Of a stretch of DNA of 64,000 bases, positions 29,628-36,830 are shown one piece after another. A model generated the notes under the pieces. The model saw nothing but the letters and a program-made list of their open reading frames with translations. It was not told the origin of the DNA and made no database searches. The stretch is from an uncultured Clostridia bacterium (GTDB taxonomy: Bacteria; Bacillota; Clostridia; Oscillospirales; Oscillospiraceae): the NCBI GenBank assembly GCA_946547105.1, contig CAMNOV010000001.1, positions 1 to 64,000 on the forward strand, read 5' to 3'. Made by a program: the position numbers and the translations under genes. Within the stretch, counting starts at the first letter, position 1; each line of letters begins with the position of its first letter.

Positions 29628-31202
29628 TCAGCCGTACAGCGACCAGGTCTTGCCTGACTGCTGGTAGGTATCGTAGCCGAACTGTTCGCACAAAAGCGCA
29701 TAGCGTTCGACGCGGTTTTCAAGGACGTTTCGATTCAGCCCGTCTTTGAAACGCCAGTGGCCCTCAGCCGGGTCGACCCAGCGAAACTCAAATTCGCAAT
29801 CAGGGTGGCGGGATATGATCTCTTCCTGCTGGCTTTCCGGCACATAGCACATCGTGCAGTAAAAGCGCTTGAGCTCCGGGAGGTCATAGAGGCTGCTGAT
29901 ATCGGTCGGTCCGACGGGGACGTTATTGGCATTTCGCTGGCAGCTGATGTTGAGGTGTTGGAGATGTGTGCAATTTGCTAGCGGAGAAAGATCACTGACG
30001 CGGGCGGAAAACAGCTCCAGGTATTCCAGATTCGGACAATCGGCGATTGGGCTGATGTCGTTGAGCCAGGTGATCGCCAGGATCGCCACCTCCAGCTTCG
30101 GCATATAGCTGAGAAAATCCGCATGAGTGATCAGCGTATGACCAAGGTCGAGATATTTCACGTCTGTGCAGTATTTGAGCGGAGCACTGGTGTTGTCGTT
30201 GACCGATCCGCCGGTCGCCCAGATCATTTCCGTGTCCGTCAGGCAGTGATAGCTGCCGAAGAACACGCGCCAGACGACTTTGATCCCGGGAAAATCGTCC
30301 CGCAGCTGAGCCATGTGTTCATCGTCCACGCCGCAATTGTCCAGCTTCAAATAGTTCAGATTGCGGAAATAGGGGAGAACCGCTCTCAGCTCGTCCAGGC
30401 CTTCGTTGCCGATCTCCAGGTTCTCAAATTCGATGGATTCCGCATCAAGCGAAACAGGCTGGCCGAATAGCTCGGTCTGGTAGTCCAGCCGGATGGCGGA
30501 GCTGGCGGCGCTGAGCCTCATGGCGTCTTCCAGACTCAGCTCGTTTTCACTCTGCGGAATACTCACGGAACTGAGATGCGAAAAGCGCTCGAGCTGTGGG
30601 ATCAGCTGCTGCAGACTGTCCGCATTCAGACCTGTTAAAGTCAAGGTTTCCGTATCATAAGGATAAAGCTCGTCGAGCAGATGCAGAGAATAGCTGATCT
30701 CACAATCGGGACAGGCCTCTTGCAGCGCATCGACGACAGCCCCTTCAGCGATATCCGGCGCAATGGAAATGCTGCGAAGATTTTTCAGCCAACCCGCGTT
30801 CTCGGCGAGAGAGGGAAGATAGGAGGCGTCATCGATCGTCAGCGTTTCCGTCTCCGGATCAAGGGAAAGCGGATCTCCGCCGCCGTCGATCAGCACCGCA
30901 TAGCTGACTTCGACGTCCGGATGTTCCATCATAAAACTCTCGATCGCATCATAGCAGCGGCTGCCGGTGAGATCAAGGCGGACAAGCGCCGAACAATCCA
31001 GCGATTTCAAATCAGATTCGCTGAGAACCGCCTTTAAATCAACTGGCGGTGTTTCCGGAACGTATGGGATATACTCCGTGGCAGCGGGTTTGGATTCATC
31101 TGATGGATCCTGGTCGCTGCGCCCACTGCCCAGGCGAAGATACAGCAGAGTACCCAGCAGCAGGACCAAGGCGATCAATGCGATTTTTTTACCGTATTTC
31201 AT
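29628..31202 (-). CDS. Membrane-anchored leucine-rich-repeat protein of unknown function
   Basis: Single N-terminal TM; LRR units such as LEYLELFSARVSDLSPLANCTHLQHLNISC; 524 aa. Confidence 0.82.
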   Translation of the reverse strand: MKYGKKIALIALVLLLGTLLYLRLGSGRSDQDPSDESKPAATEYIPYVPETPPVDLKAVLSESDLKSLDCSALVRLDLTGSRCYDAIESFMMEHPDVEVSYAVLIDGGGDPLSLDPETETLTIDDASYLPSLAENAGWLKNLRSISIAPDIAEGAVVDALQEACPDCEISYSLHLLDELYPYDTETLTLTGLNADSLQQLIPQLERFSHLSSVSIPQSENELSLEDAMRLSAASSAIRLDYQTELFGQPVSLDAESIEFENLEIGNEGLDELRAVLPYFRNLNYLKLDNCGVDDEHMAQLRDDFPGIKVVWRVFFGSYHCLTDTEMIWATGGSVNDNTSAPLKYCTDVKYLDLGHTLITHADFLSYMPKLEVAILAITWLNDISPIADCPNLEYLELFSARVSDLSPLANCTHLQHLNISCQRNANNVPVGPTDISSLYDLPELKRFYCTMCYVPESQQEEIISRHPDCEFEFRWVDPAEGHWRFKDGLNRNVLENRVERYALLCEQFGYDTYQQSGKTWSLYG

Positions 31203-33681: not shown

Positions 33682-33832
33682 TGTTTGCATCTCCTTTTCT
33701 CAATTCGGGTTGTTTGCCCACAGCTATTTTTTGCGATCCAGCATGACATATACCAGGCATCATCAGGTAATTTTTCCCGGCGAATATCAAATGATAACTT
33801 TTGTTTTTGTTTTACATTTTTTCGAAATCATA

Positions 33833-33862
33833 TTGACATAAAGGGGTAAAATGCCGTATCAT
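33833..33862 (+). promoter_or_regulatory. Promoter for P-type ATPase-like / HAD pair
   Basis: TTGACA-18 nt-TATCAT. Confidence 0.55.
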
Positions 33863-33917
33863 TTAATTTATGATATAAGATCATCTGATTCCAAATCAGA
33901 CTTGGGAGGGATATCAA

Positions 33918-36269
33918 ATGGGGAAGCATGAAGCTCCTGCCACTACAAATAGAAGATCATCCGGTTCGCCCAAACATGCGGCCGCTGCGCCGACAAAGGG
34001 CGGATTTCGTCTGAATATGCAGGATTTGAAACTGCCAAAGCTGCCGAAGCTGTCTTTTCCGAAATTTGCAGAAAAGACGTATGACGACGAAGACGAGCTG
34101 TTTGATGAAAGCGATCTTCCGTCGGAAGACGAAGATATGAAGATCTTTCCCGGCTCCTCTGTGAAAGCAAAAAACGAGTCCAACGATGACTTGATCGCCG
34201 TCGACGCTGAAGAGCCGGAGACGAAGGCTTATGTCGCCGAAGCTTCCGGATCAGATGATGATATTGACGATAACGAAGAAGAATTTGACGATGAGGAAGA
34301 AGACGACGAAGCGCCGGAGCCCAGGAAAATCCTCCGTTTGCCCAAGCCAGATCTGTCCGCGGCCCGTGGTTTCTTTGAGCAGCTGGCTTCTTTCGGCGTT
34401 TCCGAAGCATCGAACGCTCCCAAGCACAAACGCAGCTATTGCTTCAACCGCTATCACGTTCTGATCACCGCCGGTTCGGCGCTGCTGTTTTTCCTGTTTT
34501 GGCTGCTCCCAACGCGCGGAGCGGTCCGTTTTGCACTGTATCTGATCCCGTTCCTGTTTCTCGGGGCCTATACCGTACTGGACGCAGTAGGGGAGATCCT
34601 GGATCACGTGATCCCCGGCCGCAGCTTGATGATCACCGTGGCTGGGATCGGCATGCTCTGTCTCGGGCAGCCGCGTTCTGCCGTATTCATCATGCTGATG
34701 CATCGCATCTTCCTTCTGATAGAGGCCTATTTGTATGAGAAAAAAGCTTCAGAGCTTGACCGGCTGAACGCTCTGATCCCCGGCAATGCCGTCGCTGAGA
34801 CGGAGGATGGCCTGGAGAAAAAGGCTCCTCAGGATATGGCGCCCGGAGATATCCTCTTTGTTCCCGCCGGCGAAATGGTCGCGCTGGACGGCGTCGTTGT
34901 TGAGGGCATCAGCTCGCTCGACAGCTCTGCGCTTTGCGGCGACGGAGCAAAGCTCGACGTCGGTGTGAACAGCCGCGTTTTTGCCGGCTGCCGCAATCTG
35001 ACCAATCCGCTGCGCGTACGTGTCACGAACGCTTATACGGATTCAACGGTTTACCGCCTGGTATCCCGTGCACGTGAAGCATTGAACAGCCGTCCTTCCC
35101 GGGCAGGGCTTTTGGAAACGATTCTGTCCTGGCTGCCGCTGGCTCTGGCCGTGCTCGGCGTTATCATCGGCCTGATCGTCTCGCTTGCAACCGGTGCCTG
35201 GCGTACCTGGCTCTACCGCGGATTTCTTCTGATCGCGCTCGGCGGTTGCGGCGATGCACTGCTCTCCGCGCGGATGGCCTACTTCACCGGTATCGTGGAC
35301 ACGCTGAAAGACGGCATTTCCTATCTCAATGCCGACGTGATCGACAGCTTTGCCGGCTCCGATATGATGATTTTCTCCAAGACCGGAACCATCACAGAAG
35401 GGAAATACTCGGTCGTCGCCGTGTATCCGGTCGATTATGAGGAAAAGGATCTGCTGACCATTGCAGCTCTTGCCGAATGCCAATCCATGCATCCCATCGC
35501 CGTCGCGCTGCGTGAAGCCTGCGGGATCGAGATCCACCACCGCAGCGATATTACGCTTCTGGAAGAAACGCCAGGCAGAGGCATCCACACGCTGTTCGGC
35601 GGACGAAACGTCTATGTCGGCAACTCCTCGCTGCTGCTTGACCACAATATCGTTTTTGACGTTCCTTCCCATAAAGGCACGGTGATCCACGTCGCCGTCG
35701 ATAACAAGTACGCCGGCTGCATCGTTTTGAACGACCGCGTACGGGACGCCGCTTTTGATGCGATCGAAGAGCTTCGCCTGCGCGGCATTCGCGCCGCCGT
35801 CATGCTCACCGGCGACGTGCGTTCCATGGCGCGTCCGATCGCCTCCTCGCTGAGCTTTGATATGGTCAAATGCGAGCTTTCGAACGAGTCCAAGCTGGAG
35901 GCGCTGAATTATCTGCGGGAAAGCAAAGGCAATTCCGCCGCGATCAGCTATGTCAGTTGCAAGGACGAGGATCTTGAGCTTCTGCAGGCGGCGGACGTCG
36001 GCATCGGCTTTGCCGCTTTGACGGAGTATAAGCTCATCGGCGCCGCCTCGGTACTGCTGATGAGCGACAAGATCTTCCAGATCCCTCAGGCTCTCTTCCG
36101 GGCCAAGCGGATCACGATCGCAGCGCTTCTCTCTGCCGCCGTCATGCTGGGCCTGGAGCTTCTGCTTCTGATCCTCGGCCTGTTTGGCGCTGTAAGTGTT
36201 TGGGTCGCCATGCTGCTGATCCTTCTCGGTCGGATCGGAACCCTGGTCTACAGCATCTATTTCAAGTAA
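33918..36269 (+). CDS. P-type ATPase-like protein with altered catalytic motifs (putative pseudo-ATPase) and acidic N-terminal extension
   Basis: Overall P1-type layout (APGDILFVPAGEMVALDGVVVEG, ECQSMHPIAVALREA, GIRAAVMLTGDVRSMA, LQAADVGIGF) but FSKTGTITEG in place of DKTGT. Confidence 0.85.
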   Translation: MGKHEAPATTNRRSSGSPKHAAAAPTKGGFRLNMQDLKLPKLPKLSFPKFAEKTYDDEDELFDESDLPSEDEDMKIFPGSSVKAKNESNDDLIAVDAEEPETKAYVAEASGSDDDIDDNEEEFDDEEEDDEAPEPRKILRLPKPDLSAARGFFEQLASFGVSEASNAPKHKRSYCFNRYHVLITAGSALLFFLFWLLPTRGAVRFALYLIPFLFLGAYTVLDAVGEILDHVIPGRSLMITVAGIGMLCLGQPRSAVFIMLMHRIFLLIEAYLYEKKASELDRLNALIPGNAVAETEDGLEKKAPQDMAPGDILFVPAGEMVALDGVVVEGISSLDSSALCGDGAKLDVGVNSRVFAGCRNLTNPLRVRVTNAYTDSTVYRLVSRAREALNSRPSRAGLLETILSWLPLALAVLGVIIGLIVSLATGAWRTWLYRGFLLIALGGCGDALLSARMAYFTGIVDTLKDGISYLNADVIDSFAGSDMMIFSKTGTITEGKYSVVAVYPVDYEEKDLLTIAALAECQSMHPIAVALREACGIEIHHRSDITLLEETPGRGIHTLFGGRNVYVGNSSLLLDHNIVFDVPSHKGTVIHVAVDNKYAGCIVLNDRVRDAAFDAIEELRLRGIRAAVMLTGDVRSMARPIASSLSFDMVKCELSNESKLEALNYLRESKGNSAAISYVSCKDEDLELLQAADVGIGFAALTEYKLIGAASVLLMSDKIFQIPQALFRAKRITIAALLSAAVMLGLELLLLILGLFGAVSVWVAMLLILLGRIGTLVYSIYFK

Positions 36270-36830
36270 ATGAACGTATACGATTTCGATCAAACCGTCT
36301 ATTATCCTGACAGCTCCTATCACTTTTTCCTCTGGTGTCTGAAACGGTATCCCGGTAAGGTACTGCCGGTCATCCCCAAAAGTCTGCTGCTTGCTCTGCA
36401 ATACAAACGCGGCAAAATCGGCGCCAAAGCGCTCAAGGAGCAGCTGTTTTCCTTCCTGTGCCGGTTGGATGATGTTGACCGTGAAGTCAACGAATTCTGG
36501 CGCACGCATCGGCAGAACATGCAGAAATGGTATCTGCGCCGGAAAAAGGATGACGATCTGATCATTTCCGCTTCTCCCGAGTTTCTTCTTACGCCGATTA
36601 CGCAGGAGCTGGGGATCCGTCTGATCGCAACAAAAATGGATCCGCACACCGGAAAGATCGTAGGGGAGAACTGCCATGACCGTGAAAAGGTTATCCGTTT
36701 CCTCTCAGAGTTCCCAGGAGATACGATCGAAGAATTCTATTCCGACTCTCTGTCCGATACGCCTTTGGCCGAGTTGGCCGAGCGTTCGTATCTGGTCAGC
36801 AAAGAGATCTTGACCCCATGGCCTAAATAA
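36270..36830 (+). CDS. HAD-IB family phosphatase (SerB-like)
   Basis: VYDFDQTVYYPDSS motif I, DDLIISASPEF motif II, FYSDSLSDTPL motif IV; ATG immediately follows the upstream TAA. Confidence 0.88.
   Translation: MNVYDFDQTVYYPDSSYHFFLWCLKRYPGKVLPVIPKSLLLALQYKRGKIGAKALKEQLFSFLCRLDDVDREVNEFWRTHRQNMQKWYLRRKKDDDLIISASPEFLLTPITQELGIRLIATKMDPHTGKIVGENCHDREKVIRFLSEFPGDTIEEFYSDSLSDTPLAELAERSYLVSKEILTPWPK

Follow-up and report, generated by a model that had tools for sequence, protein, structure and literature searches.

A maintained family of predicted pseudo-P1B-type ATPases co-encoded with a HAD phosphatase in a genus of rumen bacteria

The P-type ATPases are defined by a phosphorylated Asp. Human TMEM94, also known as ERMA, adopts the P-type fold without a TGE motif and with the GDGxND loop replaced, and whether it acts as a pump is under dispute (PMC12134183, PMC13322241). 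In the apicomplexan guanylyl cyclase alpha, the P4-ATPase domain contains the conserved Asp, which is required (PMC7858053). Among the open-access papers searched, none was found that describes a bacterial pseudo-P-type ATPase.

Here we describe such a candidate from an uncultured bacterium of the family Oscillospiraceae (assembly GCA_946547105.1). The window, that is, the whole stretch of DNA that was analysed, comprises 64,000 nucleotides of contig CAMNOV010000001.1. The protein and its relatives within the genus are denoted family A. The relevant features of the window gene are the following.

33918..36269, plus strand: putative pseudo-P1B-type ATPase (family A), 783 aa, without internal stop
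33918..34442, plus strand: N-terminal region, starting with MGKHEAP and continuing as an acidic low-complexity tail
34935..34943, plus strand: actuator motif CGD instead of TGE, residues 340-342
35244..35252, plus strand: membrane metal site G-C-G instead of CPC, residues 443-445
35376..35390, plus strand: phosphorylation motif SKTGT instead of DKTGT (Ser487)
35475..35495, plus strand: N-domain ATP-binding motif, kept, E520..S523-x-H525-P526
35574..35582, plus strand: N-domain GxG, kept, G553-R-G555
35808..35816, plus strand: P-domain TGD, kept, residues 631-633
35892..35894, plus strand: HAD motif III Lys659, kept
35955..35972, plus strand: Mg-binding loop SCKDED instead of GDGxND, residues 680-685

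The replacements that a prior, sequence-only reading of this DNA had pointed out are indeed present. Ser487, in place of the catalytic Asp, is encoded by TCC (35376-35378); CGD takes the place of TGE at 34935-34943; and GGCGDALLSA, starting at 35241, occupies the CPC-type site, with the canonical Cys positions aligned to Gly443 and Gly445. The substitution of SCKDED for GDGxND stands as well, but the coordinates given for it were off by one base (35955-35972, not 35954-35971). The position of the M6 Asp is taken by Ile. The ATP-binding set, which consists of the Glu, SxHP, GxG, KTG, TGD and the motif-III Lys, is complete: HPIA, GRG and MLTGD are all present, and direct reading of the open reading frame agrees with the reported retention of the HP motif and MLTGD. 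The frame is open for 783 codons, as claimed, and a promoter and a Shine-Dalgarno sequence accompany it. No metal-binding domain was recognised in the N-terminal region (33918..34442). Starts resembling MGKHEAP, with the K-H pair, recur across many family A members, and a DNA pattern search for this marker in other proteins of the same genome returned only the window ATPase gene.

The assignment to the P-type ATPases is supported by profiles and by the predicted structure. The window protein scores 80 bits against the Pfam E1-E2_ATPase profile (PF00122; cutoff 28) and 40 bits against Hydrolase, and it exceeds the cutoff of TIGR01494 (105 vs 62). The suggested comparison with P1B ATPases yielded matches to the heavy-metal P-type families that fall below the curated cutoffs, namely, 264.5 against 346.25 for TIGR01525 and 231.7 against 313.5 for TIGR01512, in both cases over residues 237-768. 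In the AlphaFold2 model of residues 160-783 (pLDDT 89.9, pTM 0.86), the P1B fold is predicted to be complete, and the best Foldseek matches are P1B ATPases, including the CopA structure 7r0g (E 2e-35, TM 0.82). By fold and descent, the protein belongs to the P-type ATPase superfamily, with A, P and N domains and membrane helices. The phosphorylated Asp, TGE and GDGxND that characterize catalytic P-type ATPases are missing from the predicted protein, and so are the features of ZntA (P1B-2), that is, the CPC in M4, the Asp in M6 and a score above the curated family cutoff.

The distribution of these changes was traced in a genus sample of 101 genomes of rumen bacteria, all 101 of which yielded P-type ATPase matches; most encode one protein that resembles the window ATPase more closely than does the canonical ZntA-like copy. 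The genome of the window bacterium itself also encodes an intact ZntA-like protein (L002) and a CopA-like protein (L003). Family A was represented by 68 proteins, including that of the window, and the reference set consisted of 28 canonical ZntA-like proteins from the same GTDB family. A single branch with SH-aLRT 100 has all 68 family A members on one side and the 28 canonical proteins on the other. In a tree rooted with a CopA-like protein, the family A clade (63 rows) has support of 100, and its sister group, with support of 98, consists of canonical proteins from another genus (L023, L142 and L133); both trees are quick searches assessed by SH-aLRT only, and the rooted run was made without several long-branched or partial rows. 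In the rooted tree, the first branch within family A is the NKTGT lineage, L007 (G110) and L104 (G321).

Near orthologues in the rumen MAGs RUG12339, RUG14654 and RGIG7997 contain SKTGT or SKTGS. The recurrence of the same Ser in independent MAGs leads us to reject sequencing or assembly error, in line with the initial argument that a single sequencing error does not account for it. The anticipated conservation of the altered motifs was borne out in part: the catalytic position is occupied by a residue other than Asp in close orthologues (about 45-86% identity), but SKTGT, CGD and SCKDED are exactly preserved in one subclade only. Degenerate homologues were also considered as a widespread phenomenon in other genera, and this was rejected because the sampled best matches are canonical. 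Outside the genus, in other genera and families, the best matches that were inspected, a second family (family B, see below) apart, all contain DKTGT and nearly all contain CPC; one of them, L176, did not show CPC among the matches listed, and one of the 19 best matches outside the genus missed the strict GDG[IV]ND pattern only.

The residues of the catalytic cycle and those of the nucleotide site fared very differently in family A. The nucleophile column, which is Asp in 28 of the 28 canonical proteins, holds D in 28, G in 14, E in 10, S in 9, N in 5, T in one and C in one of the 68 family A members, and at least 11 changes at this position map to the family A tree. The TGE Glu is found in 8 of 68 family A proteins against 28 of 28 canonical ones, the first and second Asp of the Mg loop in 40 and 51, respectively, and the M6 Asp in 22. 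A search for orthologues with intact motifs found the CPC Cys pair in 0 of 68 (28 of 28 in the canonical set) and all four of the catalytic acids tested in a single member, L105, which has VGE for TGE and lacks CPC. Because Asp persists in 28 of the 68 proteins and L105 combines all four acids tested, some family A members might perform partial phosphoryl chemistry. Two shorter members, L124 (568 aa) and L125 (561 aa), are without the TGE region, having apparently lost actuator sequence independently.

Residues of the ATP-binding set, by contrast, hardly vary. The KTG Lys is present in all 68 family A members and the Thr in 67; in the N-domain motif, the Glu is found in 68, the Ser in 67, the His in 64 (Asn replaces it in four members) and the Pro in 67; the first Gly of GxG is kept in 64 and the second in 68; and both the TGD Asp and the motif-III Lys are found in all 68. 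A motif-independent measure, the mean retention in family A, domain by domain, of 180 columns that are invariant in the canonical proteins, gives 0.92 for the N domain, 0.80 for the first part of the P domain, 0.61 each for the A domain and the second part of the P domain, and 0.31-0.41 for the membrane segments. As a correction to the initial reading, erosion does not extend to the whole putative active site, the predicted ATP-binding set being close to invariant. The window protein has likely retained nucleotide binding.

This pattern bears on two readings in which the protein still moves ions. The first is an active pump with a non-standard mechanism, in which another residue is phosphorylated or hydrolysis proceeds free of a phosphoenzyme, with a new ion site in the membrane. 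In favour of such a pump, the protein preserves the complete P-type fold together with the ATP-binding residues, and ERMA reportedly moves Mg2+ with DKQGI, without TGE and with GSSANL for GDGxND; however, that reported transport still required the Asp of ERMA (PMC13322241). In the window protein, the Asp, the TGE Glu, the first Asp of the Mg loop and CPC are all changed, the replacements vary among relatives with no single consistent alternative, and conservation against the canonical proteins is lowest in the membrane segments, so that we regard a pump of this kind as very unlikely. The second is a channel or exchanger, either passive or gated by ATP, the membrane part of which opens or closes upon ATP binding without hydrolysis. 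It would fit a protein that kept the nucleotide site and lost the pump chemistry, and the AlphaFold2 model preserves the membrane helices of the fold, but no new ion-binding residues that are conserved throughout the genus were noticed and the membrane columns are poorly conserved against the canonical set, which leaves a channel unlikely.

Between close orthologues, dN/dS in the P and N domains is about 0.02; it is the lowest of the segments in most pairs tested, with values of 0.012-0.034 in many. The membrane and A segments give higher ratios, and the N-terminal tail usually gives the highest. The pair L048/L050 is an exception, with no lower ratio in P/N. Because dS is saturated in some pairs, the reliable ratios are those from less diverged ones (e.g., L062/L067 and L057/L058), which agree. 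The alternative, a gene decaying under relaxed selection after duplication, could draw on motif losses that differ between lineages and on the additional absence of the TGE region from L124 and L125. Against it stand the open frames of the retrieved family A members, dN/dS ratios that are much smaller than 1 in most segments and, for most pairs, reach their minimum in P/N, the ATP-site residues kept in 64-68 of 68 proteins, and a conserved operon and promoter; decay is extremely improbable, and we reject it in view of the dN/dS ratios, the open frames and the conserved operon. The proposal that the gene is maintained thus survives this check, with strong purifying selection that is strongest in P/N in most pairs. 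Lost catalytic residues, a kept fold and purifying selection are, jointly, the marks of a maintained pseudoenzyme, the inactivity of which is predicted.

The window ATPase gene is directly followed by a partner gene.

36270..36830, plus strand: HAD-IB phosphatase, 186 aa, operon partner of the ATPase, Pfam HAD 59.6 bits

The start of this gene abuts the ATPase stop codon, and 61 of the 64 loci have a HAD-IB gene downstream in the same orientation. Most loci have a gap of -4 to +19 nt between ATPase stop and HAD start; in about 20 the gap is about 500 nt, and in several of these a nitroreductase-like gene (cluster 19) was identified within it. The HAD residues D5, D7, T9, K140, D159 and D163 are present in 61 of 61 proteins and S100 in 57, so that HAD-IB motifs I-IV (DxDxT, Ser, Lys, D..D) appear intact and form a predicted active site; a PDB sequence search for clues to the substrate returned nothing informative. 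In the NKTGT lineage (L007/L104), the HAD gene is unlinked, and in G110 it directly follows obg (L136). Given this separation, and the distance of about 500 nt in about 20 loci, the ATPase and HAD proteins need not interact directly.

The same HAD gene directly follows all three canonical ATPases of the sister group, and in one of these loci, L232, a gene of the ArsR family precedes an ATPase that starts with a His-rich tail. These observations suggest an origin from a metal-efflux operon; neither this origin nor the operon partner featured in the initial reading. In the simplest history, an arsR-zntA-HAD operon apparently lost metal and phosphoryl chemistry and kept ATP binding and the phosphatase. 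Within the genus, arsR genes are found upstream of the pseudo-ATPase in eight loci (L078, L079, L087, L088, L092, L100, L102 and L105), and the CVC motif of the encoded proteins is reduced to CVL or RVL. A DxH...HxxE pattern, which we take to resemble the alpha-5 zinc ligands, is seemingly kept in these ArsR proteins, a hint that a metal-related role may persist.

A second family of predicted pseudo-P-type ATPases, the P1B relatives of family B, accompanies family A across the genus.

988-2622 in L004 / 1527-3161 in L040 (own genome, contig C4): family B gene

The protein encoded in the genome of the window bacterium (L004, 545 aa) has no actuator domain, reads DKNG for DKTG and has the GDGxND loop deleted; family B proteins in general are about 550 aa long, with DKNG or DKPG and with the actuator and Mg loop deleted. 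Matches, a few of them weak or partial, were obtained in 75 of the 101 genus genomes. The gene adjoins fba and, in most loci, a gene for a tyrosine-recombinase-like protein, and is located near homologues of radA, cwlD and spoIVA. L196 and L198, from other genera, are actuator-less P1B ATPases that kept CPC and are likewise encoded beside fba; they apparently represent a stage on the way from an intact pump to family B. The presence of an intact paralogue (L002) in the same genome and the co-occurrence of families A and B in most genomes of the genus would be compatible with hetero-oligomers in which the family A protein is a regulatory partner of the ZntA-like pump or of the family B pseudo-ATPase. 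Such a partnership seems quite improbable: the genes were not seen together in one operon, family B is missing or escaped detection in 26 of the 101 genomes, many of these incomplete, and P1B ATPases are generally regarded as monomers.

The region upstream of the ATPase gene contains the following features.

33833..33862, plus strand: sigma-A-type promoter, TTGACA (33833-33838), 18-bp spacer and TATCAT (33857-33862), conserved in orthologues
33904..33910, plus strand: Shine-Dalgarno sequence GGGAGGG, read directly, conserved in L034 and L035, GGAGG in L036
33481..33690, minus strand: alpha/beta-type SASP, divergent neighbour, Pfam SASP 100.5 bits

The best TTGACA-N17/18-TATCAT site has two or fewer mismatches in 39 of 66 genus loci (shuffled mean 3.7), and simple consensus scans found no sigma-E/F/G/K-type promoter upstream of family A genes. 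Owing to the conserved sigma-A-type promoter, expression looks vegetative. Just 5' of this promoter, the four closest orthologues share a conserved stretch at 33800-33830, TTTACATTTTTTCGAAAT, with a palindromic core, ATTTCGAAAT in the window, that is a possible operator or promoter of the divergent SASP gene. The latter is probably outside the ATPase-HAD system; a SASP gene is found upstream, in either orientation, in 32 of 62 genus loci. Elsewhere in the window (29628-31202, minus strand), a gene encodes a 524-aa protein with leucine-rich repeats and what seems to be a membrane segment at its N-terminus; this protein is kept in close relatives.

Among the 54 loci with enough flanking sequence, 30 have spoIIIA genes downstream on the same strand, and about half of the loci, the window included, have uvrA/recD2 or other genes there instead. 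The first of these counts, the upstream SASP genes and the position of the second pseudo-ATPase of the same genome near the cwlD and spoIVA homologues could be taken to indicate a sporulation protein that acts alongside the SpoIIIA-SpoIIQ channel or handles metals in the forespore. The location of about half of the loci before spoIIIA notwithstanding, such a role is weakened by the vegetative-type promoter together with the negative scans for sporulation sigma factors; the different neighbours of the other loci and the variable SASP orientation also count against it, and gene arrangement can reflect an inherited neighbourhood. We consider proximity to spoIIIA and SASP genes to be neighbourhood, not proof, and a role in sporulation to be unlikely.

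The interpretation as a maintained pseudo-P-type ATPase is upheld by the orthologue motifs and by purifying selection, and metal pumping through the standard cycle is very probably not something that the protein performs. The best explanation as a whole, in which we have reasonable confidence, is a maintained, non-transporting pseudo-P1B-ATPase that is a nucleotide-responsive scaffold or regulator of the HAD phosphatase; its sensor or scaffold function is what we infer. Under this scheme, the pseudo-ATPase would be expressed during vegetative growth and would bind ATP or another phosphorylated ligand, binding would cause a conformational change, and the phosphoenzyme cycle and metal pumping would be beyond its reach, such that it would serve to scaffold the co-encoded enzyme at the membrane or to regulate it allosterically. 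That the pseudo-ATPase regulates or anchors the phosphatase is the tentative part of this scheme. Equally tentatively, family A may represent a genus-wide prokaryotic pseudo-P-type family in which metal transport gave way to controlling a co-encoded HAD phosphatase in an ATP-dependent manner. If so, an ATP-reading membrane receptor would have been made from a pump, with repeated loss of the Asp and retention of the ATP pocket. Family A combines repeated replacements of the phosphorylated Asp with a canonical operon in the sister group, from which the likely ancestral state can be read, and allows one to ask what a P-type ATPase that binds ATP and forms no phosphoenzyme can do and whether a P-type ATPase can control a HAD phosphatase. 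Annotation pipelines that label such genes as heavy-metal pumps would be in error.

Among the known systems, ZntA (P1B-2, transporting Zn/Cd/Pb; TIGR01512/TIGR01525; structures 4umv and 4umw) shares with the window protein the fold with A, P and N domains, the SxHP and GxG nucleotide motifs, TGD and the motif-III Lys, and the window protein is, by its sequence, a descendant of the ZntA family; unlike ZntA, it has no CPC, catalytic Asp or TGE Glu, its Mg loop is altered and its scores are below the cutoffs. The closest analogue is the eukaryotic protein TMEM94/ERMA; ERMA keeps the Asp (DKQGI) and has an occluded nucleotide pocket, whereas the window protein lost the Asp and kept the ATP-site residues. 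The apicomplexan guanylyl cyclase alpha resembles the locus in linking a P-type ATPase module to a second, signalling enzyme, but its ATPase belongs to another subfamily and is fused to the cyclase. The partner shares DxDxT, Ser, Lys and SDxxxD with the HAD-IB hydrolases (TIGR01490; PgpC/SerB-like), with scores below the subfamily cutoffs. Finally, the ATPase-HAD operon of the sister genus (L232, L233 and L234) is a direct relative, with the same HAD-IB gene directly after the ATPase; it differs in that its ATPases are canonical and in that L232 adds the preceding ArsR gene and the His-rich N-terminus.
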